Virus record (IMG/VR): IMGVR_UViG_3300030101_004750 | Coordinates: 1-32,377 of that record | Reading direction: 5' to 3' (one strand) | DNA length: 32,377 nt | Origin: a virus | Shown: positions 1 to 16,577 of the stretch, piece after piece | How positions within the stretch are numbered: the stretch's first letter is position 1 | How the letters are laid out: each line of letters starts with the position of its first letter | The notes under the pieces: model-generated | The model's database searches: none | What the model was told of the DNA's origin: nothing | Seen by the model: only the letters and a program-made list of their open reading frames with translations | Position numbers and translations under genes: made by a program

Positions 1-149
1 AAAGAATTATTGACGCTAAAATACCTTACGACCAAATTATCTGTGAGTTTGATAGCTGGATTCATATTTCGGTTTCAAACGATCCATCCGACCCGCCACG
101 GCAAAATGCTTTAACTATCGACAAAAAAGGTGTTCGAGTCTTTGCTTAA
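1..149 (+). CDS. M15-family peptidase (endolysin), C-terminal part
   Basis: This is the end of the endolysin gene whose start lies at 32019 at the other end of the window. The frame is open from base 3 to the TAA at 147-149 and encodes the third metal-binding segment, SWIHIS. Bases 1-70 repeat 32308-32377 with three substitutions, so joining the ends gives one continuous protein of about 145 residues. The VD at the right end reads ID here because of one of those substitutions. The circular join is inferred from the overlap and from frame continuity. Confidence 0.85.
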   Translation, partial: RIIDAKIPYDQIICEFDSWIHISVSNDPSDPPRQNALTIDKKGVRVFA

Positions 150-361
150 TTTCCAATTATTTTGAAAGTCTTTCAAAATTTTGAAAAACAGGTAAGATAA
201 CGCAATGATTTTAAATAATAAAAATATATGCAGTGATATTAAAAATATCACTGAAAAAGTTGCTTAACTTATTAATTATTAATAATAAATGATCGTTGAC
301 TTTCAAAATATTTAGCTGTTTTTTGAAAGATTTTGTTCTTTGTAATCAATCGTTATATTTT
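150..361. other. Candidate phage attachment region (attP) between endolysin and integrase
   Basis: This 212-base stretch has no gene. It is very AT-rich and lies against the 3' end of the integrase gene, the usual place for attP. It holds four copies of CTTTCAAAA/TTTTGAAAG, a 10-bp inverted repeat (231-253) and a second AT-only inverted repeat (269-275 with 279-285). Repeated 9-mers in both orientations around a central symmetric core resemble integrase arm-type and core-type sites. The exact core cannot be fixed without the host attB. No tRNA fragment was recognised. Confidence 0.5.
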
Positions 362-373
362 TTATTTTGAAAG
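160..373. repeat. Five copies of the 9-mer CTTTCAAAA (both orientations)
   Basis: Copies: 160-168 (TTTTGAAAG), 170-178 (CTTTCAAAA, making a 19-bp palindrome with the first), 300-308, 321-329 and 365-373; the last is inside the integrase 3' end. Three copies share a longer form, ACTTTCAAAATA. The clustering is seen directly; a role as integrase arm sites is inferred. The 160-178 palindrome could also act as a weak terminator for the endolysin transcript. Confidence 0.6.
231..253. repeat. 10-bp perfect inverted repeat, 3-base centre
   Basis: CAGTGATATT at 231-240 is the exact reverse complement of 244-253. It lies in the middle of the arm-site cluster, so it could be the recombination core or a directionality-factor site. 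A terminator is less likely because the stem is AT-rich and no T-run follows on the plus strand. Confidence 0.45.
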
Positions 374-1411: not shown

Positions 1412-1781
1412 CAGATTCGGTCAAAATTTGAAATATTCGGTTGGCTTGATCGATTGTGATAACTTTGTTTGCTTTAAAATGAACTTTTTTTTCATCCAGT
1501 TCGTAGGTGTTTATGCTTAACGTATTTTTGCTGGTTTCCAGAACATCATATTCGGGCAGCAAATATTCCTCTGGGACGTTAAAGGCTTTGGCAATTTTTG
1601 TAAGAGCTATGCGTGATGGCTTAGAGACTCCTCGCACATATCGACTTATTGCATCTCGACCCTTGAGCCCAGCTTGTTTAGCTAATTCCGTTTGGTTCCA
1701 GCCTTTGATCTGCATATGTTCTAAAAGTTTTTGCTGAAAGCTCTTCCCTTCAACTAATTCTAATTTCTTTTCTGCGTTCAT
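1389..1781 (-). CDS. XRE/CI-type transcriptional repressor
   Basis: This protein has a helix-turn-helix of the XRE (lambda repressor/Cro) family near the N-terminus (QKLLEHMQIKGWNQTELAKQ, then GRDAISRYVRG). No LexA-like peptidase domain is visible, so it is a short repressor of about 130 residues. The start at 1781 (MNAEKK) was chosen as an ATG just before the domain with GGG six bases upstream; ATG at 1823 and TTG at 1832 are also in frame. It lies divergent from a Cro-like gene, and the integrase gene overlaps its 3' end, which is the usual lysogeny layout. Confidence 0.87.
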   Translation of the reverse strand: MNAEKKLELVEGKSFQQKLLEHMQIKGWNQTELAKQAGLKGRDAISRYVRGVSKPSRIALTKIAKAFNVPEEYLLPEYDVLETSKNTLSINTYELDEKKVHFKANKVITIDQANRIFQILTESDGPQKKK

Positions 1782-1856
1782 TTTTAACCCATTCTGCCGT
1801 TGTGGTTTTGTATTGAACAACATGATACACAAAAACGTATTTTAAAACAAAAATAA

Positions 1857-1884
1857 AAAATAGGCGTGACATATTGACACTCAA
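1857..1884 (-). promoter_or_regulatory. Candidate promoter for repressor and integrase
   Basis: On the minus strand, TTGAGT (complement of 1879-1884) is followed after 16 bases by TATTTT (complement of 1857-1862), a reasonable sigma70-like pair upstream of the repressor start. It overlaps the rightward -35 box, so a repressor bound here could control both directions. Confidence 0.45.
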
Positions 1885-1937
1885 TTGCGTCTTGGTTTAA
1901 GGTTATTATTCGCTCTTTCAAGTTGTTTTTGAGTGCA
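1874..1937 (+). promoter_or_regulatory. Candidate early rightward promoter and operator
   Basis: TTGACA at 1874-1879 is a consensus -35 box; a weak -10 (TTAAGG) sits 17 bases on at 1897-1902. CACTCAA at 1878-1884 recurs inverted as TTGAGTG at 1929-1935, and the two copies are plausible half-operators for the repressor or the Cro-like protein. Operator status is inferred from position and symmetry only. Confidence 0.4.
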
Positions 1938-1974
1938 ACATGAAATTAAAAAACGACAAAATAAAATAATAGTT

Positions 1975-2253
1975 ATGGAAAACAAACAGTTAACAATTGA
2001 CATCAAAGACATCATAAATGTTTTTGGCAGCGCAAGAGAATTGTCAGGGGATTACAAGAAGTATTTTGATTGTGATCTGAGTGTGACAACAATTGCGCAG
2101 TGGGTGCGTAGAAATAACATAAGAGGCGAACATCTTTTTTGCTTGGCTTACATTGCAAAGCAAAAAAATTTAAGATTTGAGTTGAGTGATTTTATCTCTG
2201 AGGGGAGTGAAAATGAGCACAAAAGCAAAGAAAGCAGTATTAAAAATCATTAG
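1975..2253 (+). CDS. Cro-like DNA-binding protein (putative)
   Basis: This is the first gene rightward from the divergent control region, encoding about 92 residues from the ATG at 1975; GTG at 1933 is an upstream alternative that would overlap the operator. The middle part (ARELSGDYKKYFDCDLSVTT followed by IAQWVRRNN) reads like a degenerate helix-turn-helix of the Cro type. The position, opposite an XRE repressor, is the main support for a Cro role. Its 3' end overlaps the next gene by about 40 bases. The family assignment is tentative. Confidence 0.6.
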   Translation: MENKQLTIDIKDIINVFGSARELSGDYKKYFDCDLSVTTIAQWVRRNNIRGEHLFCLAYIAKQKNLRFELSDFISEGSENEHKSKESSIKNH

Positions 2254-2662
2254 TGATGAAGTTCAGACAAAAAAGGAAGAACAAGAATTAGACTCGTTAG
2301 CAACTCGAGAAGCAGTGCTACTTGAGCTTGACCGAGCAGAAGTTTGGCAAGATTTCGGGTGGGCAATGAATATCTTGTGCAAAACTTTTTTAAGTTATTA
2401 CGAGGACTACGACATTGCTGAAATAAAATCAGCATTAATGTTAATGCGAGATATGCACGTTAAAACAAAAGATTCAACTTTGAACTCGCCAATTCTGCAT
2501 TCGGTCACTAAGAATATGCTCTCAGACAATTGCCCACTTGTTACTAAAATGAGACAGTTGGTTGACCTTCCTGCGAGAGATCGGCAGCGGTGGATTGATC
2601 GAGAACGGAAACACATGATCAAGGCAACATCCGACATCTCTGATATCGATGGCAATGTATGA
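2213..2662 (+). CDS. Hypothetical early protein
   Basis: This 149-residue protein was not recognised. The start at 2213 is set by a near-perfect Shine-Dalgarno (GAGGGGAG); the in-frame start at 2186 lacks one. The sequence is largely helical and charged, with a lysine-rich N-terminus and a basic region near the C-terminus (RDRQRWIDRERKHM). No catalytic motif is visible. It overlaps the RuvC-like gene by four bases (ATGA), so translation is probably coupled and a role in replication or recombination is possible. Confidence 0.7.
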   Translation: MSTKAKKAVLKIISDEVQTKKEEQELDSLATREAVLLELDRAEVWQDFGWAMNILCKTFLSYYEDYDIAEIKSALMLMRDMHVKTKDSTLNSPILHSVTKNMLSDNCPLVTKMRQLVDLPARDRQRWIDRERKHMIKATSDISDIDGNV

Positions 2663-3159
2663 AAGTGATCGGCATCGATCCGGGCAAAGATGGAGCCATC
2701 GCAGTGTTTGATTTGAATTTAGCTCCCATAATCGCCGTACATGATATGCCAAACTTTGAAATCAAAGCCGGAAAAACGGTGAAAAAAAGATTGGACGAAC
2801 ACGCCCTTGCCAAATTGATCGGACAAATTAAACCTGATCACGCTTGGCTTGAGCGTGTTTCAGCCATGCCTCGTCAAGGTGTGAGCTCCACTTTTTCTTT
2901 CGGAACAAGTTACGGAATTATCAAAGGTATATTAGCGGCATTAAAAATTCCATATTCGGAAGTGACTCCACAAAAATGGACAAAATCGTTGGCTGTTCCA
3001 CAAGGTAAGGATGGATCGAGGAAAAGGGCTTGCGAACTATTCCCTGACAGCAGTCATTTTTTTGAACGCAAAAAAGATCATAACAGAGCCGACGCTGCAC
3101 TGATTGGGTATTTCGGAGCACGGCAAAATTACATAAAAAAATTTGCCCTCAATGTATGA
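2659..3159 (+). CDS. RuvC-like Holliday-junction resolvase
   Basis: This 166-residue protein has the RNase H-like fold signature of RuvC resolvases: VIGIDPGKDGAIA at the N-terminus with the first Asp (D7), a Glu in WLERVSAMP near residue 65, and a C-terminal DHNRADAALIGYFG segment with the last acidic residues. RuvC enzymes cut four-way junctions as metal-dependent dimers; in phages they resolve branched DNA before packaging. Its length is close to bacterial RuvC. It overlaps the previous gene by four bases and lies among other recombination genes. Confidence 0.85.
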   Translation: MKVIGIDPGKDGAIAVFDLNLAPIIAVHDMPNFEIKAGKTVKKRLDEHALAKLIGQIKPDHAWLERVSAMPRQGVSSTFSFGTSYGIIKGILAALKIPYSEVTPQKWTKSLAVPQGKDGSRKRACELFPDSSHFFERKKDHNRADAALIGYFGARQNYIKKFALNV

Positions 3160-3184
3160 AGTTAAGCACAACAAATAATTAAAA

Positions 3185-3313
3185 ATGGAAGAAAAAGATT
3201 TTGAACAACTGATAGCTGCGATTCTTATTTTCAAAAGTAAGAGCGACAGTCCGGCACAGCTAAAAAAACTGATTGCATTAGCGAAGGAATTGAGCAGGGA
3301 GATGGATAAATGA
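3185..3313 (+). CDS. Small hypothetical protein (42 aa)
   Basis: This short gene reads MEEKDFEQLIAAILIFKSKS and ends SREMDK. It is supported by filling the gap between its neighbours and by its stop overlapping the next start (ATGA at 3310). The upstream ribosome site is weak. The product looks like a single amphipathic helix. No function is suggested. Confidence 0.55.
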   Translation: MEEKDFEQLIAAILIFKSKSDSPAQLKKLIALAKELSREMDK

Positions 3314-3510
3314 TTTTAACCAAAAAAGAATTGATAGAAATTACGGGAAAGAAACAGCACTCCAAGCAAGCTCAAACCTTACGTCACATGAACATTCCTT
3401 TCAAAACCAGATTAGATGGGAGTCTAGTTGTCGCAAGTTTTCATTTCCAAAAAGATGATTTTATTTCCAAGCCGTCAGTTAGCGAATCAATCGCCGGGTT
3501 AATTTTATGA
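3310..3510 (+). CDS. DUF4224-type protein
   Basis: This 66-residue protein begins ILTKKELIEITGKKQHSKQA and continues with a 'xLRHMNIPFKTRLDGSLVV' stretch, which matches the pattern I know from DUF4224: a short phage domain with a helix-turn-helix-like start and a small beta segment. Its role is not established; DUF4224 genes commonly lie in phage early operons. Both ends overlap the neighbours by four bases, so it is part of a translationally coupled set. Confidence 0.72.
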   Translation: MILTKKELIEITGKKQHSKQAQTLRHMNIPFKTRLDGSLVVASFHFQKDDFISKPSVSESIAGLIL

Positions 3511-4313
3511 ACAATTTTGAAAAATTATTGATTGATCACTTGAGCCCTTCAAGCATCAATCGTTTTATGGCTGATCAATCAGGATGGTGTGTTAATTATT
3601 TGCTTAATCAGAAATTTAAAGTGGGTTATGCAGCCTTCGTTGGAAAAGCTGTGGAAACTGGATTAGCTCAAAAGTTGTTTTTCCCAGAAACATCACTTAA
3701 TGAATGCACAGCGATGGCTGTTCGCCAATTTGATGCTGAAGTTAAAAGCCAAGGTGGTTTGATGGTGGATGATCTTGGCGAGCATTACGAAAAAATTAAA
3801 GCGATGATTCCCTTGGCGATTGAACATTTTAAGCCGTACGGCGAACCGACTCGATCAATGGGAAATCATCAACACAAAATCCAAATGGATTTTCGGTTTG
3901 GTAAAAAGCCCAACGACAAAATTGAAACGATTGGCTATCTCGATTTTTTTTACGAGGATAAACCTTTAATTATTGATCTCAAGACAACAATGAGAGCTCC
4001 GTCCCGGTGGAGTCAAGGTCATGGCATTCAAGCCGCCATCTATAGCTTTGCTATGAACTGCCCAGTCAAGTTTGTTTATGTCACGCCTAAAAAAATTGTT
4101 GAGCTCACGTTAGAAGAAGAAGACAAAAAAGAATTTTTGGGAATTGCGAAAGCTGCGGTGATTCGTATGAATCATTTTCTCAGTCTGTCGGAAGATCCCA
4201 TTAAGCTCGCTCGGAGTGCCGGGCATGATCCTTCAAGTTTTTATTGGAAGGACAATCCAACCTTCGAGCAAATTTTAATTAACGTAGAAAAGGAAAAAAG
4301 TCATGCCGCTTGA
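3507..4313 (+). CDS. PD-(D/E)XK (RecB/Cas4-like) exonuclease
   Basis: This 268-residue protein starts with LSPSSINRFMADQSGWCVNY, the usual opening of the RecB-like PDDEXK_1 group. The catalytic core is visible as GYLDFFYEDKPLIIDLKTT (about residues 140-160), giving the metal-binding Asp and the D-x-K of the motif. Such enzymes resect DNA ends for phage recombination, often next to an ssDNA-binding or annealing protein. The following gene overlaps by 11 bases and may be that partner. No iron-sulphur cysteine cluster of the true Cas4 type is obvious. Confidence 0.82.
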   Translation: MNNFEKLLIDHLSPSSINRFMADQSGWCVNYLLNQKFKVGYAAFVGKAVETGLAQKLFFPETSLNECTAMAVRQFDAEVKSQGGLMVDDLGEHYEKIKAMIPLAIEHFKPYGEPTRSMGNHQHKIQMDFRFGKKPNDKIETIGYLDFFYEDKPLIIDLKTTMRAPSRWSQGHGIQAAIYSFAMNCPVKFVYVTPKKIVELTLEEEDKKEFLGIAKAAVIRMNHFLSLSEDPIKLARSAGHDPSSFYWKDNPTFEQILINVEKEKSHAA

Positions 4314-4872
4314 ACTCAGTAGCGCAGAAAAAGTACCGTATTTAAAATATAGCCCAAGAGACAATGAGTGGAGTTTATCATCAGAAGATGGAGCTTATTC
4401 ATTTGATTGGGATGGTCCTGCCATTTGGGATGTTGAAAAAATTGAACTTGGTTGGTTGCTCTTGGATGTTGGAATGAGAGAGTGGGAGCCTTGGCCTGGC
4501 AACAAACGAACACCAAAACCTGATGAGAGAGAGTGGAAGCAAGGATTCATTTGCAAGGTTTTTAGCAAAAATCAATTTGATGATGCTCCGGTGAGGCAGT
4601 TCTCTAGCAACGGCACCGGGATCAACAAATTTATTACGAACCTTTATAATGAAGCTGAAAAGGTTAGCAATCGTTTTGCCGATGGCAAAGTTCCTGTTGT
4701 CACAATCACGGGGGCTGACAAAGAAAGTTATAAAGGTAAAGGATCGACCAAAATCCCAACCTTTGAAATTGTAAAGTGGGTAGCTCGTCCAAGTGAGTTA
4801 GACGGTGATGAAGTGGCTGAAGCTCCGAAGCCAAAGCAAAAACCAAAAAACGAAAATCCAGAATTTGAATGA
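4303..4872 (+). CDS. Putative single-stranded DNA-binding-type replication protein
   Basis: This 189-residue protein is not firmly recognised. It has a central region rich in Trp, Phe and beta-type sequence (YSFDWDGPAIWDVEKIELGW, then EWKQGFICKVFSK) compatible with an OB-like fold, then a disordered, Pro/Lys-rich tail ending NENPEFE. An acidic, aromatic-ended tail is typical of phage and bacterial SSBs, which use it to recruit partners. The position between exonuclease and prim-pol/helicase supports an ssDNA-binding role. A strong terminator follows 8 bases after the stop. Confidence 0.5.
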   Translation: MPLELSSAEKVPYLKYSPRDNEWSLSSEDGAYSFDWDGPAIWDVEKIELGWLLLDVGMREWEPWPGNKRTPKPDEREWKQGFICKVFSKNQFDDAPVRQFSSNGTGINKFITNLYNEAEKVSNRFADGKVPVVTITGADKESYKGKGSTKIPTFEIVKWVARPSELDGDEVAEAPKPKQKPKNENPEFE

Positions 4873-4880
4873 TTACCCTG

Positions 4881-4937
4881 CCGCTGAGTCAGTTTACCTC
4901 CTCTAGGCCATACTAAAATTGACTCAGCGGTTTTTTT
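4881..4937 (+). terminator. Strong Rho-independent terminator with long loop
   Basis: CCGCTGAGTCA (4881-4891) pairs exactly with 4920-4930 and is followed by seven Ts (4931-4937). The stem can extend to 15 pairs with one G-T wobble. The 28-base interior is unusually long and holds CCTCCTCT. The prim-pol start codon lies only three bases beyond the T-run. Confidence 0.85.
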
Positions 4938-4940
4938 AAA

Positions 4941-7004
4941 ATGAGTTTATTAAACACATCATTAAAATTTTTAAAAATGGGATTGCATCCGATTCCCTGC
5001 CATCGACCTGATGATCAAACAAAATGCACTTGCCATCACCAACATCAATGCGTATCTATTGGCAAGCATCCAGCGATGCCGTGGCATGGCTTACAAAAAA
5101 CAGGAGTTACCAAAAACAAACTTGACGCTTGGTTTGGCGAAGCTGGTTCTTTTGAAGATTACAATTTAGGACTCATTACCGGGAGCATTAGCAACAATGT
5201 TTTTGTGATTGATGTTGACCTTGGCGAAGGCAAAGAAGGCGATGAATCATTGCTAACCTTAGAGCTTGAGCACGATGATCTGCCGCAAACTTTGCAAACC
5301 ATTACAGGATCAGGTGGTCGGCATTATTTTTTTCGAGCTCCCAAAAATAAAAAAATTATCACTGGTAAAAATGTTCTAGGGCCGGGGCTTGACGTTAGAG
5401 GTGAAGGTGGATTTGTTGTGTGTGAACCAAGTGTTCATCAAAATGGGAACAGCTATAAAACACAATGGGATTTGATTGCTGAAGCTCCCGATTGGTTAAT
5501 CAATTTAGTAGTCGAGCCTACAACAAACGGTCACGCAACAAGTTCCATCCAAGAAGTAAGTTATGGCACAAATCCCTTCAAAGCCGAAGATGGTCGAGAA
5601 GGAGTCATGTATAAGACAATTCTTTCTGAGCTCCACTCATTTATTGACGTTCATCAAAGTATTCCAGAACTTGAAGAATTTGTTGATCAAGCGTACCCGG
5701 TTTATGAAGCAAAAGTAAATACTAGAGGCGTTGATCTCGAAGAAGATAATCGAGGAATTACTTTATTTAGGCAACGAGCTCAGTATCAAATCAATCGAGC
5801 CAAACGAGGTGATTTAAAAATCTTGAACGACCTAACGATTGATCAAGTAAAAAAAAAGACCGATGAAAAGTTATCAATCACAAATTGGGGGCTCGATAAA
5901 TTTCAAGGAACACCGGAGCCTGTTCAATGGTTGGTCAATGGAATTATTCCAATGAAGATTCCGATGTTGTTAGCGGCGATTGGTGGGTTAGGTAAAAGTT
6001 ATTTGGCTTTGGATTTAGCTTTGAAAATTGCCGGCGGAAGTAATGATTGGAACTCTGATGAACAACACTCTTTAGGGGGTCAGATAAAAAAATTTGGCAA
6101 GGTTGTTTTTTTTACAGCCGAAGATTCTGCCGGAGCCGTTCATAGAAGATTAGATAATATGGATTCCGATTTGCGACAAAAAGCAGAAGGAAATTTGTTT
6201 GTTGTTCCGCTACCTGACGCTGGGGGAGCTCATGCCTGGATTTCCAATTCCCAAGGACAACTGCATCACACCATGCAATATTTGGAGATACGAGATCAGT
6301 TACTTGCGATGGATGATTTGGTGCTTGTAATCATTGATCCGCTGCAAGCATTTGTTCACGCCGACATTAACTCTGATCCATCAGCAGCACAATTTTGGTG
6401 GTCGACTCTGAGTGAGCTTTGTGCAACGTGTGGAGCAACAGTGTTGGTGTCGCACCATATGAGAAAAGAAACCGCTTTTGAAATTACAAGACCAGAAGAA
6501 GCAAGACAAGCCATTCGAGGAACAACCGCATTGGTAGACGGTTCGAGGCTTGTTTATGCTCTTTGGAGTTTACCAGCAAAAGAAGAAAAAGAGCTCTGTC
6601 ACTTGTTGGAACTGGAGCACGATCACAATCGATTAGCTGCCGGGGCTGTTGTAAAAACCAACGAGTTTGCATCGATGGGAATACGCAAGTTTGTCAGGAA
6701 TGAAAGTGGTTTGCTTGAGGATTGGACGGACAAAATTGATACGGTTTTGGAAGAACGTGAAGAGATTACCACGATGCAACGCATCGATATTTTTAAGGAA
6801 GTCAAACGAAGATATTCAAACGGTTCAGCTTTTTCCTCGAGCCCACAAGCTCGAACAAATTCGCTTGTTAACTATTTAGTAGAGCGTTTCAAAATGACCC
6901 GGAAAATCGCTAAAAGCAAAATGGGTTATTGGTTGGAGAATGGTGAATTGATTGCAACACAAAAACTCAATAAAAATGTTTTAACTGTTAGGGAAGGAGA
7001 ATAA
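4941..7004 (+). CDS. Primase-polymerase fused to RepA-like (AAA) helicase
   Basis: This 687-residue replication protein has two parts. The N-terminal bifunctional primase/polymerase domain shows CxC/HxxxC residues and GKHPAMPW, the catalytic FVIDVDLGEG (near residue 90) and GSGGRHYFF (near 125). The C-terminal ATPase has a Walker A GGLGKS near residue 350 and a Walker B LVIIDPLQAF near 460, as in RepA-type hexameric helicases. It would prime DNA and unwind the fork; as no DNA polymerase gene is seen, host polymerase is probably used. The ATG has no Shine-Dalgarno and sits right behind a terminator. Confidence 0.9.
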   Translation: MSLLNTSLKFLKMGLHPIPCHRPDDQTKCTCHHQHQCVSIGKHPAMPWHGLQKTGVTKNKLDAWFGEAGSFEDYNLGLITGSISNNVFVIDVDLGEGKEGDESLLTLELEHDDLPQTLQTITGSGGRHYFFRAPKNKKIITGKNVLGPGLDVRGEGGFVVCEPSVHQNGNSYKTQWDLIAEAPDWLINLVVEPTTNGHATSSIQEVSYGTNPFKAEDGREGVMYKTILSELHSFIDVHQSIPELEEFVDQAYPVYEAKVNTRGVDLEEDNRGITLFRQRAQYQINRAKRGDLKILNDLTIDQVKKKTDEKLSITNWGLDKFQGTPEPVQWLVNGIIPMKIPMLLAAIGGLGKSYLALDLALKIAGGSNDWNSDEQHSLGGQIKKFGKVVFFTAEDSAGAVHRRLDNMDSDLRQKAEGNLFVVPLPDAGGAHAWISNSQGQLHHTMQYLEIRDQLLAMDDLVLVIIDPLQAFVHADINSDPSAAQFWWSTLSELCATCGATVLVSHHMRKETAFEITRPEEARQAIRGTTALVDGSRLVYALWSLPAKEEKELCHLLELEHDHNRLAAGAVVKTNEFASMGIRKFVRNESGLLEDWTDKIDTVLEEREEITTMQRIDIFKEVKRRYSNGSAFSSSPQARTNSLVNYLVERFKMTRKIAKSKMGYWLENGELIATQKLNKNVLTVREGE

Positions 7005-7007
7005 AAA

Positions 7008-7298
7008 ATGAAATTTTTACAAATTGTAAAAACCACAAAAGACACTGTAGGTTGGTTAAAAAAAACTGGTTATACCGAAACAGTTCTTGGGCGAGTTCAT
7101 CGTCCGAATGTTTTAGCAACGCTGACCGAAATCAAACGCAACGATAAACCTGAATATGTGGTTGCGGTGCGTGATGTGCAAAAGCGTGAATTGGTTGGAG
7201 TCCAACACAAATTTTTAGAAAAAGATCGTGCTGAAAAATTGTTTAACAATATTGCGAATGACTTATGTAAAGATTTGGGTTATGAGCAATCTCATTAA
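7008..7298 (+). CDS. Hypothetical protein (96 aa)
   Basis: This protein was not recognised. It is preceded by a good ribosome site (GGAAGGAG) placed inside the end of the helicase gene, so it is cotranslated with it. The sequence is basic and beta-rich in the middle (PEYVVAVRDVQKRELVGVQH) with a helical C-terminus. No catalytic motif or membrane segment is visible. Confidence 0.65.
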   Translation: MKFLQIVKTTKDTVGWLKKTGYTETVLGRVHRPNVLATLTEIKRNDKPEYVVAVRDVQKRELVGVQHKFLEKDRAEKLFNNIANDLCKDLGYEQSH

Positions 7299-7509
7299 CT
7301 CGCCGAAACATTACACCAGTGGCGGCATTGAGGCGATTGATTTCATTCGAGCAAAGTTAGGAGCCAGAGGGTTTACGGCTTACTGCATCGGGAATTGCTT
7401 CAAATATTTGAGTCGCTACGGGTTAAAGGGTGGCGTGGATGATTTAGAAAAATGTAAAAAATATTTAGAGTGGGCGATTGACAATGAAAGAGATCGATTG
7501 GGAAGCTGA
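7282..7509 (+). CDS. DUF3310 family protein
   Basis: This 75-residue protein starts INSPKHYTSGGIEAIDFIRA and contains YCIGNCFKYLSRYGLKGGVDDLEKCKKYLEWAI, which matches the DUF3310 pattern (PxHY, IG..xKY, R...K.G..DL.KA..YL). DUF3310 proteins are common small phage proteins, often annotated as nucleotide kinase-like, though the biochemical role is uncertain. The ATG at 7282 overlaps the previous gene by 17 bases and was chosen because the conserved domain begins here. Confidence 0.82.
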   Translation: MSNLINSPKHYTSGGIEAIDFIRAKLGARGFTAYCIGNCFKYLSRYGLKGGVDDLEKCKKYLEWAIDNERDRLGS

Positions 7510-8113
7510 AGAGCGTGAATTTTACGCTTTGAAGCCTGTTAAGACGAAACAAAAAAAACCAACAAAACAACAAAAAAAAGAGCAAAGGGCGCATTGGGAT
7601 ATGGTTAAAAAAGTTTTTAAAGATGAGGTGGCAGCTGATAAAAAGAGTTGGGAACCTTGGTACCGGGATTTGCTTGCACCTCTTAATGCGGCGAAAGAAC
7701 GCATGGACAAAAGGTGGGGTACCGGGAGACTCAAAAAGTTGGTGAGTCCTAAAACTCTCAAGATGTTCCAAGGTGTCGAGGATGATTTGAATGATGCTAT
7801 TGCCAAAAAAGATGAAGATAAGCTCATTCGTAAATCTACAAATTTAATTCGAGGGCTTGAGGTTATGGATCAGGAAGCCAGTCAAAAACATAAAACTTTT
7901 GAAGTGCCTCATGTTTTGGAAGGACAACTACCCAATAAAAAGTTTTTTGGGATTGTCAGGACTGAGGAAGATAGAGAAGCGTTGCAGCCACTCGCTCCAA
8001 ATGTCATCTATAGCATTAATGAAATCGCTCAGATCATCCACAAATTTGATCCTGATGGATTAGGCGCTGAACTCAAAAAAGATTTTAACAGCAAATTGGA
8101 AAGTGTTGAATGA
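7484..8113 (+). CDS. Hypothetical charged protein (209 aa)
   Basis: This protein was not recognised. It is lysine- and glutamate-rich, with a basic stretch near residues 16-30 (KTKQKKPTKQQKKEQRAHW) and long predicted helices. ATG 7484 was preferred over TTG 7478. Its start overlaps the DUF3310 gene by 26 bases and its stop lies directly before the methyltransferase fragment. A structural or DNA-bound helper role is possible, but nothing in the sequence decides it. Confidence 0.65.
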   Translation: MKEIDWEAEEREFYALKPVKTKQKKPTKQQKKEQRAHWDMVKKVFKDEVAADKKSWEPWYRDLLAPLNAAKERMDKRWGTGRLKKLVSPKTLKMFQGVEDDLNDAIAKKDEDKLIRKSTNLIRGLEVMDQEASQKHKTFEVPHVLEGQLPNKKFFGIVRTEEDREALQPLAPNVIYSINEIAQIIHKFDPDGLGAELKKDFNSKLESVE

Positions 8114-8230
8114 ATGAAAGTGATCGATTTGTTCAGCGGTATTGGTGGATTTTCGCTAGGGTTGGAAGCTGTTGGTTTTCAAACCGTCCAGTTTGTCGAG
8201 CAAGATCCTTTTTGCCAATATGAGTATTAA
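8114..8230 (+). pseudogene. N-terminal stump of a C5-cytosine DNA methyltransferase
   Basis: The 38 codons encode MKVIDLFSGIGGFSLGLE and FVEQDPFCQ, that is, intact motif I (SAM binding, FxGxG) and motif II of the Dcm/HhaI family. The frame then stops before motif IV (the catalytic Pro-Cys), so it cannot be an active enzyme. The stop lies 11 bases inside the Mom-type gene, and the matching C-terminal motif X is found at 8904-9023. Together they show that the middle of the methyltransferase gene was replaced. Confidence 0.85.
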
Positions 8231-8891
8231 AAATAAATATTTTGTAAGATTTATTTCTAGCTCAGAAACTTGGGAGTGGTTTTTGCGTAAACATTATGCA
8301 AAAAGAATACCTCATATCGTTCATTGTTTAGGTTTATTTGACGCTGATAAAGTTTTACAAGGTGTTATCAGTTTTGGAATATCCGCATCACCCTCTCTGG
8401 TTTGTGGAGCTTTTAACGGCAAATATAAAGATATCTTTTTAGAATTAAATAGGTTGTGCATTAATGACCATTTAGACAAAAATGTTTTAAGTTTTTTTGT
8501 AGGTCAATCACTTAATCTTTTAAAAAAACCTAAAGCCATAGTTTCATACGCAGATACGTCACTAGGTCATCATGGGTACATCTATCAAGCCACCAACTGG
8601 ATATATACTGGGTTGTCTGACGCTCATAAAGAATGGAGAATGTTCGGTAGCAATTTACATAGCAAACCGCTTTGTGAAAAATACAATTTGGAAGAGAGAA
8701 AAAATAATCCAAACAAATTTTATTTTATTGATCGACCTAGAAAGCATCGGTATTTTTATTTTGTGGGAAATCGCAAAGAAAAACGAGAAATGAGAGATTC
8801 GTTGAGTTATGCGGTTTTGCCTTATCCAAAAGGAGATAACAAACGATATGATTCAAGTTATATCCCAAGCGTGCAAAGAGTATTATTTTAA
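8220..8891 (+). CDS. mom: Mom-family DNA adenine-modification protein
   Basis: This 223-residue protein carries the signature of the Mom family (a GNAT-fold enzyme from phage Mu that converts adenine to a methylcarbamoylated form and so blocks many restriction enzymes): LELNRLCINDHLDKNVLSFF near residues 76-95, then YADTSLGHHGYIYQATNW and YTGLSD near 109-132. The start at 8220 is an ATG overlapping the methyltransferase stump; the open frame back to 8172 is only a shadow of that stump. Unlike in Mu, no Com-like activator gene is visible next to it. It replaces the central part of a cytosine methyltransferase gene. Confidence 0.85.
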   Translation: MSIKNKYFVRFISSSETWEWFLRKHYAKRIPHIVHCLGLFDADKVLQGVISFGISASPSLVCGAFNGKYKDIFLELNRLCINDHLDKNVLSFFVGQSLNLLKKPKAIVSYADTSLGHHGYIYQATNWIYTGLSDAHKEWRMFGSNLHSKPLCEKYNLEERKNNPNKFYFIDRPRKHRYFYFVGNRKEKREMRDSLSYAVLPYPKGDNKRYDSSYIPSVQRVLF

Positions 8892-8903
8892 CAAAATTAA
8901 ACA

Positions 8904-9023
8904 ATGAATGAAAAAGATCGAGGACAAAAATTGAAGGGGCTGGGGAACGCTGTTGTTCCACCTCTGATAGCAAAAATCGGAGCGTTGATAATGGAATATG
9001 AGATGCAAATTGATCATGAATAA
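8904..9023 (+). pseudogene. C-terminal stump of a C5-cytosine DNA methyltransferase
   Basis: The 39 codons contain KLKGLGNAVVPPLIAKIGAL, which is motif X of C5 methyltransferases (GNAVxPPxxxxIG), the segment that completes the SAM-binding domain at the protein's end. The frame has acquired an ATG at 8904 but encodes only this tail. It overlaps the next small gene by 8 bases, as an intact methyltransferase gene would, so the downstream junction looks original. Confidence 0.82.
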
Positions 9024-9207
9024 ATTATACGTTTTCACCCATCCGACCGACAAAACTTTTTCTTTTAAAATTTTCGGACAATTGACTCAACAAATGTTGG
9101 ACAAAATGATTTGTAGCTTGCAAGGGAATTATGCGGTTAGGGAATATATGAAGGGAGACACAGAATATGAGCGATTTGTTGAATCCAATTATTCAAAAAA
9201 ATCTTAA
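9016..9207 (+). CDS. Small hypothetical protein (63 aa)
   Basis: This protein (MNKLYVFTHPTDKTFSFKIF and onward) was not recognised. It may be a small alpha/beta protein. Its ATG at 9016 overlaps the methyltransferase tail, and its 3' end overlaps the next gene by 41 bases, so it sits in a coupled series. No motif suggests a function. Confidence 0.55.
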   Translation: MNKLYVFTHPTDKTFSFKIFGQLTQQMLDKMICSLQGNYAVREYMKGDTEYERFVESNYSKKS

Positions 9208-9844
9208 TTTACTTCGCAAAAATCACCTTACCAGCCGACAAAATTTTTACTCTTTCAAAAGAGCTTGTGAGGAAGATTGTTGTTCGGTTCGTTTAAATCT
9301 TAAATCGATGCAACATGGTCGGTGGTTCAGACAACCGGGCGTGAGTTGTGTTGTCAGGGATGAGGATGAAACGATTGGGATTGAGGTGGTCACCAAGTCA
9401 ATCACTTTGAGAGTTCTCACTCGATTCGATGAGCACAGCGATTTGGACACCAAAATTCTGATTGTGCAAAGTGCCGGGATATTCATTCCGGCGAAAGTGA
9501 GAGATGTTTCAAGCCAGAGTATCAAAAAAGCCGATCTTTTCATTGCAATCGGGGCCAAAAAACCCATCATAAAAACACAACAAGACATAGTAAGAGCTTG
9601 GCCTGATTTCGAGATTCCTGACCAGTTGATTGTGGATTTGGTGCAGAGATTTTGGAACACTCAAACACCCTTATCGTTGCATTTGTCGGTAGGGGTGGAT
9701 AGACACCTGCCAACACAAATGAATTTGGGTTATCAAATCGATGAGAGGCGTTCTAGGGACGCTGTGAGGCATTTGATAGGGCGTAAGGTACTTACCCTAT
9801 CAGTTCACCCGATAAGTGGCTTAAAAGGCTTGCGTGTGGCTTAA
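9167..9844 (+). CDS. Hypothetical protein (225 aa)
   Basis: This protein was not recognised. It has a basic first half with a Cys-rich stretch (CEEDCCSVRLNLKSMQHGRW) and a central beta-rich part (KILIVQSAGIFIPAKVRDVS). The ATG has AGGGAG upstream (about 9152-9157). The last 70 bases of the gene contain a nested inverted repeat, described separately. It is the last gene of the early rightward block before a regulatory gap. Confidence 0.65.
   Translation: MSDLLNPIIQKNLNLLRKNHLTSRQNFYSFKRACEEDCCSVRLNLKSMQHGRWFRQPGVSCVVRDEDETIGIEVVTKSITLRVLTRFDEHSDLDTKILIVQSAGIFIPAKVRDVSSQSIKKADLFIAIGAKKPIIKTQQDIVRAWPDFEIPDQLIVDLVQRFWNTQTPLSLHLSVGVDRHLPTQMNLGYQIDERRSRDAVRHLIGRKVLTLSVHPISGLKGLRVA
9775..9801. repeat. 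Nested inverted repeat inside the end of the preceding gene
   Basis: GATAGGG (9775-9781) pairs with CCCTATC (9795-9801), and inside it TAAG (984-87 of this block, i.e. 9784-9787) pairs with CTTA (9791-9794), leaving a two-base bulge and a three-base loop. No T-run follows, so it is not a normal terminator; RNA processing, a pause site or a protein site are possible. Confidence 0.45.
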
Positions 9845-10014
9845 AGTGTTGTTTTGGTGTTGGGCGAGTCTGATGCTTGTCTGTGCAATGGGGCGAATTA
9901 TCTTTTTTTTCCTAATATAACTAATATAAGGTATACAAGTGTATACCAATTTGATATACTAGATCTATTGGGGTTGCAGCTCTACTTTTTAAAACTTTTT
10001 AGGAGAAAGATGAA
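9845..10014 (+). promoter_or_regulatory. Non-coding control region of the MORN gene
   Basis: The region holds two tandem copies of CTAATATAA (9912-9920 and 9921-9929) followed at once by a perfect palindrome, GGTATAC and GTATACC around AAGT (9930-9947). A ribosome site AGGAG lies at 10001-10005. The palindrome has the size and symmetry of a dimeric repressor operator. No consensus -35/-10 pair is clear; TATACT at 9955-9960 could be a -10 box. Confidence 0.5.
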
Positions 10015-10365
10015 ATGACTAAAACAGCAAAAATAAGCGACACAGTTATTAAATATTCGGGTTCATATAACAAGCAGGGCTTATATCACGGACAAGGAAC
10101 CGCATACTTTTATGACGGAGGGAAGTATATTGGGGAATGGAAGGATGGCAAAAAGCACGGTGTAGGTAGATCCCGTTATGCGACAGGAGCCGTATATGTT
10201 GGAGAATTTAGAGACAACAAAAGACATGGAAAGGGTTGTATTGGTTATCCAAGTGGAGCCATGATAGCTGGTGATTTTAAAACCGATGTGGTTAAGGTTG
10301 ACTCATCAAGTGGAAAACAATATTTACTAAAATACTCCCTTGAAACCGATCCTGCGACCGTCTAG
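10015..10365 (+). CDS. MORN-repeat protein
   Basis: This 116-residue protein contains about three MORN-type repeats (consensus YxGxxxxGxxHGxG): LYHGQGTAYFYDGGKYIGEW, KDGKKHGVGRSRYATGAVYV and FRDNKRHGKGCIGYPSGA. MORN repeats form elongated beta-hairpin arrays that often mediate protein or membrane contact; they have no known enzymatic activity on their own. Start chosen by AGGAG 9 bases upstream. It has its own palindrome upstream and a strong hairpin downstream, and so looks like an independently expressed 'moron', possibly active in the lysogen. Confidence 0.82.
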   Translation: MTKTAKISDTVIKYSGSYNKQGLYHGQGTAYFYDGGKYIGEWKDGKKHGVGRSRYATGAVYVGEFRDNKRHGKGCIGYPSGAMIAGDFKTDVVKVDSSSGKQYLLKYSLETDPATV

Positions 10366-10390
10366 CAAATTTTTTCGTGGAAAAGATAAC

Positions 10391-10424
10391 GCAACCTAGG
10401 GAGTTTGCAGACTCCATAGGTTGC
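10391..10424. repeat. Strong hairpin downstream of the MORN gene
   Basis: GCAACCTA (10391-10398) pairs with 10417-10424 and GGAGT (10400-10404) with ACTCC (10411-10415), with one unpaired base on each side and a six-base loop: 13 pairs in all. No T-run follows on the plus strand. It may be a transcript-stabilising structure, an RNA processing site or a partial terminator. Confidence 0.6.
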
Positions 10425-10454
10425 TAACCACAAAATCATTTAGGAGATGAATTT

Positions 10455-10769
10455 ATGGCTATTAAGCAGTTTATAAGAATGCAAGCATTTATGTCGGATT
10501 ATTGGAGTCAAGCTCCAGAGACAGGGCGTAATGCTTTGTATCAGATTTATAATGATGTCGAGATTAAGCTCGTTCCCAATTACCAAGCGAATCAGGTGTC
10601 GATTGACGCCATTGAAGCTCAAACCAGTCAGAAGATGAGCCAAGCATTGACTTGGATCAGCAATCTCGCTGATAAGCACAAAATTAAGATTAGTCGGGTC
10701 AGAGGAACGTATGGTAGACGCAAACAACAACAACGGAGGGACAGGCAATGGACGCAACTGAGCTTTTGA
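10455..10769 (+). CDS. Hypothetical protein (104 aa)
   Basis: This protein was not recognised. It is preceded by a clear Shine-Dalgarno (AGGAG at 10442-10446). The protein is mainly helical with a very basic, Arg/Gln-rich tail (GRRKQQQRRDRQWTQ), suggesting nucleic-acid contact. It overlaps the excisionase-like gene by 22 bases and is probably coexpressed with it. Confidence 0.65.
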   Translation: MAIKQFIRMQAFMSDYWSQAPETGRNALYQIYNDVEIKLVPNYQANQVSIDAIEAQTSQKMSQALTWISNLADKHKIKISRVRGTYGRRKQQQRRDRQWTQLSF

Positions 10770-10930
10770 GTGTGAGGAAGGTGTCGGAGATTGAGGGCGT
10801 TCATCGGACTTATATTTATAAATTGATAAAAGAAGGACGAATTGAAACAATAGCAATTGGGGATAGAATATTTATCCCCAAAAGCTATCAAATCAAGCCC
10901 AAAGGTGAGGTTAAAAATGTAACAGTTTGA
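10748..10930 (+). CDS. Excisionase/HTH_17-like DNA-binding protein
   Basis: This 60-residue protein reads LLSVRKVSEIEGVHRTYIYK, then LIKEGRIETIAIGDRIFIPKS, the pattern of the HTH_17 excisionase/MerR-like winged helix (helix-turn-helix, then a wing with the conserved 'GRI...IGDRxFIP'). Such proteins act as recombination directionality factors or as small repressors. It lies far from the integrase but directly upstream of a promoter-like region with GTAACA half-sites, one of which overlaps its own 3' end. Start set by GGAGGGACAGG just upstream. Confidence 0.78.
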   Translation: MDATELLSVRKVSEIEGVHRTYIYKLIKEGRIETIAIGDRIFIPKSYQIKPKGEVKNVTV

Positions 10931-11015
10931 TACATCTGTTTTTGCCGTATTCCCCCCTATAACCCCCATATATACTTTTTTAAGGTTTGACGTAACAAAC
11001 TGTTACATTTAAAGC
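10915..11015 (+). promoter_or_regulatory. Candidate promoter/operator upstream of Q-like gene
   Basis: A 15-bp perfect inverted pair lies at 10915-10929 and 10996-11010 (arms AAATGTAACAGTTTG and its complement). Within the right arm region GTAACA (10992-10997) and TGTTAC (11001-11006) form a small palindrome placed just after a TTGACG -35-like box (10987-10992). The -10 (TAAAGC at 11010) is weak. The arrangement suggests a promoter blocked by a dimeric DNA-binding protein, perhaps the adjacent HTH protein. Confidence 0.45.
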
Positions 11016-11173
11016 TGTCTGGTTTTTGATTGCGGAGCACCTCTAACGAGGTGCTGTCCTCACAAAAACTAGACGGTTTTGTGGGCGTTAGATTGATTTA
11101 GCAAATTAGAAGCTAGTCATAGCTGTCTGATTGTGTGTATCATTAGAACATACAAATCATACAGTGAGTATGT
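11011..11173 (+). other. Structured untranslated leader before the Q-like gene
   Basis: No gene is visible. A GC-rich hairpin (AGCACCTC 11036-11043 with GAGGTGCT 11048-11055, loop TAAC) is followed by a second stem (11059-11067 with 11077-11085). The first loop region CTAACG is complementary to CGTTAG at 11086-11091, so a pseudoknot is possible. A 9-bp direct repeat AGCTGTCTG (11013-11021, 11121-11129) brackets both stems. CATAC/GTATG (11058 of the small stem begins at 11158; pair 11158-11162 with 11168-11172) flanks the ribosome site before the GTG start. Confidence 0.45.
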
Positions 11174-11533
11174 GTGGAACAGTCATTGAAACAAGTGCAA
11201 CACATTTTAACTCTTTGGGCTCGATGGATGCGAGAAGATTCCTTTTATTCAGAGCTTGGATACAGTCAAAGTTGTTGTAGCGGTGTTCGCTTCGGCAGCA
11301 CAGATTGGGACTCGATGCTCGAAGAGATTGATGATCGTCTTGTTCGGGCCACGGATGCGATCATTGATGATTTGAGCTTGATTCATGAGAAAGCTATACT
11401 CGTTGCTTATTTGAATGTGAGCACTGACCAGGGAGTTGGAGCCCAAGAGATTGAAGCTGCGGAGCTCAAGGTCATTGAGGGTTTGAAAAGAAAAGATTTG
11501 TGGATTGAGCCGGAGGTGTTGCAATCGGCTTAA
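11174..11533 (+). CDS. Antiterminator Q-like protein
   Basis: This 119-residue protein resembles the phage antitermination protein Q/RinA-like group: an N-terminal ILTLWARWMREDSFYSELGY stretch followed by a Ser/Gly-rich loop, then an IDDRLVRATDAIIDDL helix. These proteins switch on late genes by modifying RNA polymerase at a promoter or by activating it. Here the gene is followed 20 bases later by a double hairpin terminator, then by the packaging genes, matching the Q-terminator-late-operon plan. It starts with GTG at 11174. The family call is based on pattern only. Confidence 0.65.
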   Translation: MEQSLKQVQHILTLWARWMREDSFYSELGYSQSCCSGVRFGSTDWDSMLEEIDDRLVRATDAIIDDLSLIHEKAILVAYLNVSTDQGVGAQEIEAAELKVIEGLKRKDLWIEPEVLQSA

Positions 11534-11553
11534 AATTGTGATAGCTTCGGTGG

Positions 11554-11601
11554 TGGAGCATTGTGCTCCAAGATAATCGCTCACCGGAGCGATTTTTTTT
11601 T
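11554..11601 (+). terminator. Double-hairpin terminator after the Q-like gene
   Basis: A first stem TGGAGCA/TGCTCCA (11554-11560 with 11564-11570, loop TTG) is followed by ATCGCTC (11576-11582) pairing with GAGCGAT (11587-11593) and a run of nine Ts including the last stem base (11593-11601). This is a strong intrinsic terminator and is a plausible target for antitermination. Confidence 0.85.
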
Positions 11602-11624
11602 GCTCAACGATTGAGGAGATGATC

Positions 11625-11738
11625 ATGCCAAGAGGTATGGGAACTTATGGTTCAAAGCGTGGTAGACCGCCGAAGAAAAAGCCGATGCAAAGTGGGAAAT
11701 CAAGGTCGAAACGAAGTTATTAAATTATGATTCTTAAC
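11625..11738 (+). CDS. Tiny AT-hook-like protein (37 aa)
   Basis: This gene is preceded by a clear Shine-Dalgarno (GAGGAG at 11613-11618). The product starts PRGMGTYGSKRGRPPKKKPM; KRGRPPKKK has the Arg-Gly-Arg-Pro core of an AT-hook, a short minor-groove-binding element. Short proteins of this 'MPxGxGTYGxxxGRP' form are, as far as I recall, common in phage genomes near packaging genes. Function unknown; DNA binding is inferred. Confidence 0.6.
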
Positions 11739-12089
11739 GTCAAAAAGTTTTATAAACGTCAAACTGTTAGAATTGTGGGATTGAGGGACGATTTTAAACA
11801 CTCTTATTTTAGCTTCTGAACAGCCAAGTTATCCACAATTTAGGGCGTTTTAGCCCTCAAATGCCTAGTTATCCACAGGCAAACACTGCCTAAATAGTAA
11901 TCACGAAATTATTGTTTATAATCATTAGTTTACATCGATGTCGCATAACATCTATTATGTAAACTTTTAGGTTAAGTTATTGATTTGTAACGAATTATTA
12001 TTATATGTGGGGGGATCAAGGTACCGGGGGGGGGATATTTTGCAGGTCGCAGTCGCTATCTACCCTCGCAATCACATCAGAGGTGAATT
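11739..12089. other. Candidate replication origin, non-coding
   Basis: No gene is visible for 350 bases. Two perfect DnaA boxes, TTATCCACA, lie at 11829-11837 and 11869-11877, 40 bp apart in the same direction, and between them AGGGC/GCCCT can form a small hairpin. An AT-rich tract follows, with TATAAT at 11917-11922 and a nested inverted repeat: AGTTTACAT (11927-11935) with 11957-11965, and GATGT (11937-11941) with ACATC (11948-11952). Then come two G-runs at 12009-12034. DnaA boxes beside an AT-rich zone are the usual marks of a DnaA-dependent origin. A late promoter could also lie here. Confidence 0.55.
12009..12034 (+). repeat. G-runs (six and nine Gs) before the terminase genes
   Basis: G6 at 12009-12014, GG at 12020-12021 and G9 at 12026-12034 stand out in an AT-rich neighbourhood. 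They may form a G-quadruplex on the plus strand, or be part of a packaging (pac) signal next to TerS. A homopolymer of this length is also prone to sequencing error. Confidence 0.4.
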
Positions 12090-13755: not shown

Positions 13756-15621
13756 ATGGATAAAGATTTACTGAGTTGGATTATGAGTCAGGTCGATGAG
13801 TGGCGAACCTACCGAAAATCCAACTACGATGAGCGTTGGCGCGAGTATTATCGCATTTGGCGAGGTGTTTGGGATGAGAGTGATCGCACAAGACAAAGCG
13901 AAAGATCAAGACTTATCAGCCCGGCAACCCAACAAGCGGTTGAAGGGTCAATTGCTGAGTTAGAAGAAGCTACTTTCGGACGAGATGTCTGGTTTGACAT
14001 ACGGGACGATCTTCTTGATGAGCAACCTGAAGATATTCTTTATCTCAGGAACAAAATGAAAGAGGATATGGAGCGTGAGGGGTGGAAATCAGCGATCTCA
14101 GAAATTATGTTGAACGGTTGTCTTTACGGCGTTGGAATCGGTGAGCTTTTAACCGAAGAAAAAGAGGAAATTTATCCCGACACTCAGCAAATAGAAGGCA
14201 CTGAAATTTTTCAAACGGGTGTGAATCGTAAAAGTTACATTTGTGTCAAACTAAGAGCAGTTGATCCACTAAACTTCAGCATCGACCCGGCAGCAACCAC
14301 TATTGAAGATGCTCTAGGCGTTGCCATTGATGAGCTCGTTCCACGCTGGCAAGTTTTAGCTGGAATGAAATCCGGCGATTATGAAGATGTTGACTTGGGT
14401 GATGCCACGATCAGTTATGAAGATCAATACAGTGGCGAAACCAAACAAATCCCCTCTGAAAATGCCGTGAGATTATGTAAGTATTACGGCAAAGTGCCAC
14501 GGCATTACATCGACAGTAAAGTCAAAGAAGAAGATCAAGATGATTTAGTCGAAGCGTTAGTCGTTATTGCAAACGACTCTGAAATACTAAAGGCTGTCGA
14601 GACGCCTTACATGATGGGAGATCGTCCGGTTGTGGCTTATTCGCATGACCGAGTGCCGAATCGATTCTTTGGGCGTGGTGTAGTGGAAAAGGGCTACAAT
14701 GTTCAAAAGGCTCTTGATGCTGAACTGCGAGCAAGAGCCGATGCTTTAGCACTCACAACCCACCCTATGATGGCTGTTGATGCGAGCAGACTCCCCAGAG
14801 GAGCCAAGCCTCAAGTGCGTCCCGGTCAAACGATTTTAACCAACGGCGACCCAAGCACGATTTTAAAGCCGTTCAATTTTGGTCAATTGAATCCAACAAG
14901 TTACCGGGAAAGTGCTGAACTGGAACGCATGGTCAGCCAAGCAACGGGGGCTTTTGATGTGGGTAGCCGAGGAAATACCACTTTGGGTGGAATGAGCATT
15001 GCTCAATCAGCCAGCATTAAACGTCAAAAAAGAAGTTTGATGAATTTTCAAGAGCAGTTTTTAATTCCGGCACTCACAAAATGTGCTCATCGTTTAATGC
15101 AGTTCGATCCTGAAAATTATCCAGTTCAAGATTACAAATTCAAACCAGCCAGCACATTAGGAATAATGGCAAGGGAGTTTGAAACGCAACAATTGATTCA
15201 ACTTCTGCAAGTAACGGCCCCTGATAGCCCGGTTTTTATGATCATATTGGAAAGTATTTATGAAAATTCTAGTTTGCAAAATAGAGAAGTTATGGTGGCG
15301 GCTTTGCGACAAATGTTGCAACAGTCTCAGGAGCCTCAACAACCGCCTCCAAATCCTGTGGGAATGGCTCAAGTCCAAGTTCAAAACAAGCAAATAGACT
15401 TGCAAGCACAAAAAGCCCAAGCCGACCTAGCTCTCAAACAAGCGGATCTAGCATTAAAGCAAGAAACGCTAGAAATTAAAAAAGCCGAGAACCGAGATCG
15501 CAGGGATGATTCTCAAGAGAAGAACGATTTGAAAGAGTTGGATATGTACCTCAAAAGCCAAGTGGAGTCAGGCAAGCTAGAGAGCCGAATGGCTGAAAAG
15601 ATTATTGATCGAGTTCAGTAG
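13756..15621 (+). CDS. Portal protein
   Basis: This 621-residue protein fits the large portal of P22-like/short-tailed phages: a charged N-terminus (DEWRTYRKSNYDERWREYYR), a middle domain with WDESDRTRQSERSRLISPAT and FNFGQLNPTSYRESAELERM, and a long C-terminal coiled coil rich in Gln/Ala/Lys (about residues 540-610) like the barrel helices of P22 gp1. Twelve copies form the vertex channel for DNA. It directly follows TerL and is much larger than the usual HK97-type portal. Confidence 0.85.
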   Translation: MDKDLLSWIMSQVDEWRTYRKSNYDERWREYYRIWRGVWDESDRTRQSERSRLISPATQQAVEGSIAELEEATFGRDVWFDIRDDLLDEQPEDILYLRNKMKEDMEREGWKSAISEIMLNGCLYGVGIGELLTEEKEEIYPDTQQIEGTEIFQTGVNRKSYICVKLRAVDPLNFSIDPAATTIEDALGVAIDELVPRWQVLAGMKSGDYEDVDLGDATISYEDQYSGETKQIPSENAVRLCKYYGKVPRHYIDSKVKEEDQDDLVEALVVIANDSEILKAVETPYMMGDRPVVAYSHDRVPNRFFGRGVVEKGYNVQKALDAELRARADALALTTHPMMAVDASRLPRGAKPQVRPGQTILTNGDPSTILKPFNFGQLNPTSYRESAELERMVSQATGAFDVGSRGNTTLGGMSIAQSASIKRQKRSLMNFQEQFLIPALTKCAHRLMQFDPENYPVQDYKFKPASTLGIMAREFETQQLIQLLQVTAPDSPVFMIILESIYENSSLQNREVMVAALRQMLQQSQEPQQPPPNPVGMAQVQVQNKQIDLQAQKAQADLALKQADLALKQETLEIKKAENRDRRDDSQEKNDLKELDMYLKSQVESGKLESRMAEKIIDRVQ

Positions 15622-16577
15622 TGGCTAGTATCTTCGATAAGATCAAGGGTCACATTGACCGAGGTGTTGATCGTGCCGGGATGTTTTTTAATGATCCTGA
15701 TGTGATCAGAGCGATGAGTGTTGAACAAATCGAGCCCGATGCTCCGGTTGGCGATGCGTTCAAGCGTTACGGTGCTGCGACCTTGGGAGGGCCGGGGGAT
15801 ATTTATTCGCTTATTTGGAAAGATTTAATCGGTGCTGAAAGTGATTTACCGGGGTTCCGTTCTCTTCCAACTTCAGAAACTTTGCAAAAAAGGTTTGGAG
15901 CTCCACAAGGCCCAGAGTATATGGCTGTTGATTTTCTGGCGAGCGACCCTTTCAGTATGTTGGGAAAGACAATCAAAGGTGCGAGGCAAATAAGAAAAAA
16001 AATTGGCTCTTCACCACTAGATGATAAAAAGTTAAGCGGTCTTAGTAAAAAAGAAAAAATAGCAAAGTTAAGAGCAGAAGCAAACGCTCAAAGATTTGCG
16101 GAAAAAATAGATACATCTTACAGAGGACAGCATCAGCCAAAAGGCTATGATGATTTTTCAATAAGGCTTGATAATTTAACAAAGTCAATCACAGGAGAAC
16201 AAGCTGGGTATCCAGATGATTTTTATACATCTCAAGGGCGAAGGATATACGCCCCACCAGCTAGATTTTTTGATGATGAATATGGCATAGCGAATACGCA
16301 AAGTTATAACGCAATATTGAAAGCAAAAGGCAACCCAGAGGCAGAAGTTACCATTTATAGAGCTGTGCCAAATGAAAGAAACATAACAAAAATAAATGAA
16401 GGCGATTTCGTTACATTGAGTCCTAAATATGCAGAACTGCATGGGGCTAGTGGGTATGGTTCTGGTGGACAAGATGCTGGAAAGATATTATCGCAGAAGG
16501 TCAAAGTTAAAGACCTTTTATGGGATGGAAATGATGTTAATGAATTTGGCTATTTTCCTCATGACTCCCGACCTTGA
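15621..16577 (+). CDS. Virion-region protein with ADP-ribosyltransferase-like C-terminus
   Basis: This 318-residue protein starts at a GTG overlapping the portal stop by one base. The first ~130 residues read like a phage head-region protein (DPDVIRAMSVEQIEPDAPVG). The last ~170 contain EVTIYRAVP (Arg, near residue 247), GDFVTLSPKYAELHG (near 262) and NEFGYFP at the end, an arrangement like the R-S-E core of ADP-ribosyltransferase folds found fused to phage structural proteins. The C-terminal half is more A-rich than its neighbours, suggesting a separately acquired domain. It may be a virion-borne enzyme. Confidence 0.65.
   Translation: MASIFDKIKGHIDRGVDRAGMFFNDPDVIRAMSVEQIEPDAPVGDAFKRYGAATLGGPGDIYSLIWKDLIGAESDLPGFRSLPTSETLQKRFGAPQGPEYMAVDFLASDPFSMLGKTIKGARQIRKKIGSSPLDDKKLSGLSKKEKIAKLRAEANAQRFAEKIDTSYRGQHQPKGYDDFSIRLDNLTKSITGEQAGYPDDFYTSQGRRIYAPPARFFDDEYGIANTQSYNAILKAKGNPEAEVTIYRAVPNERNITKINEGDFVTLSPKYAELHGASGYGSGGQDAGKILSQKVKVKDLLWDGNDVNEFGYFPHDSRP

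Follow-up and report, generated by a model that had tools for sequence, protein, structure and literature searches.

Apparent in-place replacement of a phage C5-cytosine methyltransferase by an intact Mom-family gene

The Mom protein of phage Mu modifies adenine (PMC10286901), has been assigned to the GNAT family (PMC7824862), and is synthesised under a translational control in which the small protein Com serves as the activator (PMC6483171). Precedents also exist for the acquisition and exchange of methylase genes by phages, both in Hill et al. 1991, as listed in PMC10286901, and in the lactococcal 936 phages, in which modification genes have been gained or replaced (PMC4190342). Here, we describe a phage locus at which, judging from its sequence, a C5-cytosine methyltransferase gene gave way to an intact Mom-family gene, and compare it with these systems.

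The locus lies in a metagenome-type viral contig of 32,377 bases (IMGVR_UViG_3300030101_004750), the whole of which was analysed and is referred to below as the window; no end repeats were seen in it. Since this record carries an integrase (362-1411, minus strand), a repressor-like gene (1389-1832, minus strand), a Holliday-junction resolvase (2659-3159), a primase/ATPase (4941-7004) and, by family matches, terminase, portal and tail genes, the phage is most likely of a temperate tailed type. The locus itself (8114-9023) belongs to the early region, with the primase block on one side and the packaging genes on the other. It is preceded by a plus-strand gene taken from the ORF list and the sequence (7478-8113), to which no function was assigned by family, with no match in Pfam or PHROG profile searches, and whose stop codon is immediately followed by the methyltransferase start at 8114. 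It is followed by a small plus-strand gene (9016-9207) that overlaps, at its start (ATG 9016 or 8998), the stop of the second methyltransferase remnant, in a layout that matches that of the related contig L004 (see below). Searches for relatives of the phage via the primase and upstream gene among viral contigs, and via the upstream and downstream genes among annotated phages, found none, and positions 1-8000 gave no DNA match to annotated phages. Elsewhere in the window, we observed a small phage gene built of MORN repeats (10015-10365; PF02493, E 4.7e-16) and, between the portal and tail genes, an ORF matching phrog_2579, 'ParB C-terminal domain' (15621-16577; E 5.6e-29).

The first part of the methyltransferase gene survives at 8114-8230 on the plus strand as a frame of 38 aa (MKVIDLFSGIGGFSLGLEAVGFQTVQFVEQDPFCQ-YEY*), which consists of 35 methyltransferase codons and 3 foreign codons, the final YEY being read out of the mom start region. 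This 5' stump matches the Pfam DNA_methylase family PF00145 at positions 1-38 (E 1.6e-9), so that motif I, near the N-terminus, is present. The sole PF00145 stretch of the whole record covers profile positions 1-40, and no second C5-type methyltransferase was found elsewhere in the record. The 3' stump (8904-9023, plus strand) represents the final ~38 codons of a C5 methyltransferase, and its stop overlaps the next gene. It gave no match in a Pfam search; it does match the C-terminus of the phrog_363 DNA methyltransferase (positions 289-321 of 327, E 5e-4), indicating that motif X (GLGNAVVPP) is present, and positions 274-307 of a 319-position profile that was made in this analysis from 81 methyltransferases (E 4e-5). 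The profile searches bear out the original prediction that both stumps derive from a C5 methyltransferase. As protein queries, these 38-aa stumps proved too short to be useful. There is no internal stop or frameshift in either of them. Motifs IV (PCQ), VI (ENV) and VIII, together with the target-recognition region, are absent from the stumps and all present in the intact enzyme of contig L007, and the remnants do not make up a working enzyme.

Between the stumps lies an intact Mom-family DNA-modification gene of 223 aa on the plus strand (8220-8891). It matches the Pfam Mom family PF25680 over profile positions 2-202 of 202 (E 2e-37, 129 bits against a cut-off of 27.1) and phrog_1384, 'Mom-like DNA modification protein' (E 1e-51). 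An AlphaFold model of the protein (pLDDT 82) has Mu Mom as its best PDB match (8bv8; Foldseek E 7.7e-11, TM 0.64), with GNAT acyltransferases as the next structural matches. Residues H25, Y26, R29, E75, N77, R78, S109, D112, Y122, Q123, N126, H147, K175, H176 and R177, identical in 21 homologues, are all retained in it. By analogy with Mu Mom, its product is expected to modify adenine and thereby shield the DNA of the phage. A longer mom ORF beginning at TTG 8172, present in the mechanical ORF list, was rejected; the homologues in contigs L001 and L003 begin at an ATG equivalent to 8220. The closest relative found is that of L001 (78% aa identity), with further relatives at 72% and 64-68% in other virus contigs, and no donor of the gene closer than this was found among the searched sequences. 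With a GC content of 32% and a third-position GC (GC3) of 25%, against 41% GC for the window, mom is compositionally foreign to its surroundings, and its two nearest relatives lie in AT-rich contigs of 31-33% GC. As a separate observation, contig L001 carries two different mom genes (3832-4536 and 5001-5669) separated by a single small gene, as does L002.

An intact counterpart of the broken gene was identified in the viral contig L007, which encodes a 296-aa methyltransferase (ATG at 3333) with motifs I, IV, VI, VIII and X visible. Both stumps are matched by the ends of this enzyme in the same order and orientation, positions 8114-8218 of the window corresponding to L007 3333-3437 (90.5% nt identity) and 8907-8981 to L007 4116-4190 (96% nt identity), which settles their identity as C5 methyltransferase. 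Between these matching ends lie about 678 bp in L007 and about 688 bp in the window. The rest of the compared L007 stretch bears no resemblance to the window; since the likeness is limited to the methyltransferase, L007 is a phage that shares this gene with the window and is otherwise different. A scan of genome contigs with the L007 enzyme returned relatives of at most 57% identity and no nearer source.

A second contig, L004, belongs to the same lineage as the window, being ~90% identical to it in nucleotide sequence downstream of the locus (8909-10019 and 10386-11999). The contig begins inside its methyltransferase, and the comparison accordingly covers the C-terminal part of the enzyme, where L004:3-473 is an open frame of 157 methyltransferase codons whose end overlaps the following gene at the same ATGAATAA. 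Because of this shared ending and the ~90% downstream match, L004, as aligned, displays an earlier or alternative state of the site. The methyltransferases of L004 and L007 are 86% alike in the 3' part, whereas their middle is not shared. Moreover, the 3' stump is a mosaic of the two: positions 8925-8954 are identical to L007 (30/30) and differ from L004 (20/30 identical), whereas from 8955 onwards the stump follows L004. Alleles of the methyltransferase gene therefore do recombine between phages. Taken with the family matches to PF00145, PF25680 and phrog_363, the L007 comparison upholds the prediction of two stumps and an intact Mom gene in this position, order and strand. The alignments confirm an in-place replacement of the methyltransferase by Mom, which, like the intactness of the Mom gene and the preservation of both flanking gene contacts, can be read directly in the DNA.

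We also noted that the methyltransferases related to that of L007 have a second, long and conserved ORF overlapping them in the +1 frame (phrog_1008, WPTP...MGFPxxW), which was seen in 89/94 methyltransferase ORFs. Examples include L007:3496-4143 within the methyltransferase at L007:3333-4223, L049:1369-2160, L004:1-351 and the genome loci L098-L177. The open stretch of the +1 frame has a median length of 242 aa; the corresponding values are 111 aa for synonymous-codon shuffles and 55 aa for the +2 frame. In 69/87 cases, the +1 frame is open for longer than in all 50 shuffles. On this sequence pattern, the methyltransferase and the +1 ORF look like a conserved dual-coding gene pair; no description of such a pair came up in literature searches. 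With the Mom replacement, nearly the whole of this overlap was lost, too.

The two junctions were located by alignment. At the 5' junction (8217-8220, TTTTTGCCAA / TATGAGTATT; aligned with L007, L001 and L003), the methyltransferase TTTTTGCCAA runs into ATGAGTATTAAA of mom. At the 3' junction (8899-8909; aligned with L007 and L004), mom-linked sequence meets the methyltransferase 3' end, with homology to L007 and L004 resuming around AATGAAAAAGATCGAGG and the L004 match continuous from 8909. The longest stretch shared across the junctions in any compared locus is at most 11 nt on the 5' side and at most 16 nt on the 3' side. Neither inverted repeats nor an invertible segment were found at the junctions, and no repeat or site-specific recombination signal marks them. 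A 17/19 direct repeat (8109-8127/8903-8921) was considered as a recombination seed and set aside, as an equally good one arose in 6.7% of shuffles and it is not significant.

The condition of the remnants bears on when the exchange took place. Between the 5' stump and L007 there are 10 base differences, and 10/10 of them are synonymous (P ~ 9e-7 under neutrality, where ~25% would be expected to be synonymous). Since the differences are all synonymous and the stumps contain no internal stop or frameshift, the divergence from L007 appears mostly to predate the break. Either the break is young relative to the separation from L007, or selection is still maintaining the stumps; a young break is the simpler of the two. 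The replacement is probably recent, because the stumps show no decay.

A stepwise history, in which the middle of the methyltransferase was first deleted and the remnant later received mom by insertion, would yield the same end product, and the remnants give no sign that the two junctions arose simultaneously. Mom and C5 methyltransferase genes can, in addition, be direct neighbours (L049, L062), permitting stepwise routes of this kind. The undecayed state of both stumps, together with the near equality of the inserted and lost lengths (688 vs 678 bp), fits a single exchange slightly better, however, and we consider the two-step history possible and, on balance, somewhat unlikely.

For a single exchange, we infer the following course. 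In the ancestor, the gene at 7478-8113 would have been followed by an orphan C5-cytosine methyltransferase and then by the small gene at 9016. Through illegitimate recombination, or recombination over short homology, codons ~36 to ~262 would then have been exchanged for the AT-rich Mom-family gene of another phage, killing the methyltransferase through loss of motifs IV, VI and VIII and the target-recognition region, and leaving the start region and the 3' overlap in place. The start context of the next gene is preserved by the 3' stump. The 5' stump, in turn, would still be translated from the old start, with ribosomes passing to the internal mom start by termination-reinitiation. Finally, Mom would modify adenines of the phage DNA (methylcarbamoyl type, Mu-like), replacing cytosine methylation as the protection from host restriction.

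The translational step of this course is suggested by the layout of the genes. The stop of the 5' stump falls 8 nt inside mom, after the start at 8220, and this ATG lies without a Shine-Dalgarno sequence, whereas many other genes of the phage have AAGGA/GGAGG-type sites. In L001 and L003, too, the mom start lies in an ATGA overlap with the preceding gene. An examination of RNA structure at the mom start revealed nothing notable (z -0.85). As the mom start lies inside the stump frame and lacks a dedicated ribosome-binding site, Mom is most likely made by the simplest route, termination-reinitiation from the stump.

The original prediction went further than an in-place swap of one modification for another, which L007, L004 and the two kept contacts substantiate, in proposing a site of routine exchange with the methyltransferase ends as recombination anchors. 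According to such an account, the start and end of the methyltransferase would supply a translation start, a downstream overlap and short homology, and temperate phages would repeatedly swap chemically different modification genes between them. In its favour, L004 and the window are two states of one site, carrying methyltransferase and mom respectively; the L004 and L007 methyltransferases have similar 3' parts and unshared middles; and the mosaic 3' stump implies, as a weak point, that gene ends recombine between lineages. Against it, we searched 87 other Mom loci with the methyltransferase profile (80 from the last viral scan, 3 from the first scan and 4 from annotated phages, with flanks of up to 3-5 kb) and found methyltransferase stumps around mom in 0/87, which is weak evidence given the few relatives of this phage in the set and the length of the flanks. 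Pattern scans of viral contigs for each stump matched L007 and L004 only. With no significant junction repeat either, a repeatedly used exchange site is unsupported and seems improbable.

Elsewhere, the two kinds of modifier were seen in proximity: in L049, an intact methyltransferase lies upstream of mom with one small gene between them, and in L062:2076-3839, the gene directly after mom encodes a C5 methyltransferase from another subgroup, so that the two modifiers stand side by side. Such neighbourhoods are one possible route to exchange.

An artificial join, by assembly or amplification, of a methyltransferase phage and a mom phage from the metagenome is unlikely: the contig is known from assembled sequence alone and samples of the same contig series (3300030116, 3300030329) contain both methyltransferase and mom contigs, but two independent joins would have been required, both correct in order and strand and both leaving the mom ORF complete and the two gene contacts undisturbed, across shared stretches too short to mislead an assembler (≤11 nt and ≤16 nt). 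Overall, the best explanation, and one that we hold to be likely, is an in-place replacement of methyltransferase by Mom, with translation via the stump and Mom protecting the phage DNA.

If so, cytosine methylation was exchanged for a bulky adenine modification in one gene slot, with the scar still readable. Such an exchange speaks for restriction pressure selecting for the presence of a modifier at this position and not for one particular enzyme, and it makes it possible to test concretely whether the stump of a dead gene can drive the translation of its replacement. The window is the sole case of a mom-for-methyltransferase swap with stumps found in this analysis, and literature searches returned no description of one. 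As far as our tools show, a modifier swap between chemically different classes with the gene ends retained is new; the replacement and acquisition of modification genes are themselves known.

Compared with Mu Mom (PDB 8bv8), the window protein belongs to the same family by profile (PF25680), sequence (E 1.5e-7) and fold (Foldseek E 7.7e-11), and differs in showing about 21% identity in the structural alignment and in having no Com-like gene visible upstream, where the frame is instead the methyltransferase remnant. Free-standing mom genes in Listeria, Bacillus Riggi, Exiguobacterium and Acinetobacter JeffCo phages are 38-43% identical to it; these, however, lie among unrelated small genes and lack methyltransferase remnants. 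Orphan phage C5 methyltransferases (phrog_363, PF00145; for example, that of L007) are the source of both stumps, whereas the window has lost all of their catalytic and target-recognition parts. Finally, as in Hill et al. 1991 (listed in PMC10286901) and in the 936 phages (PMC4190342), modification genes were gained by recombination, presumably in escape from restriction; there, a methylase gene or domain was gained, while here a methyltransferase has given way to a chemically different modifier at one and the same position.
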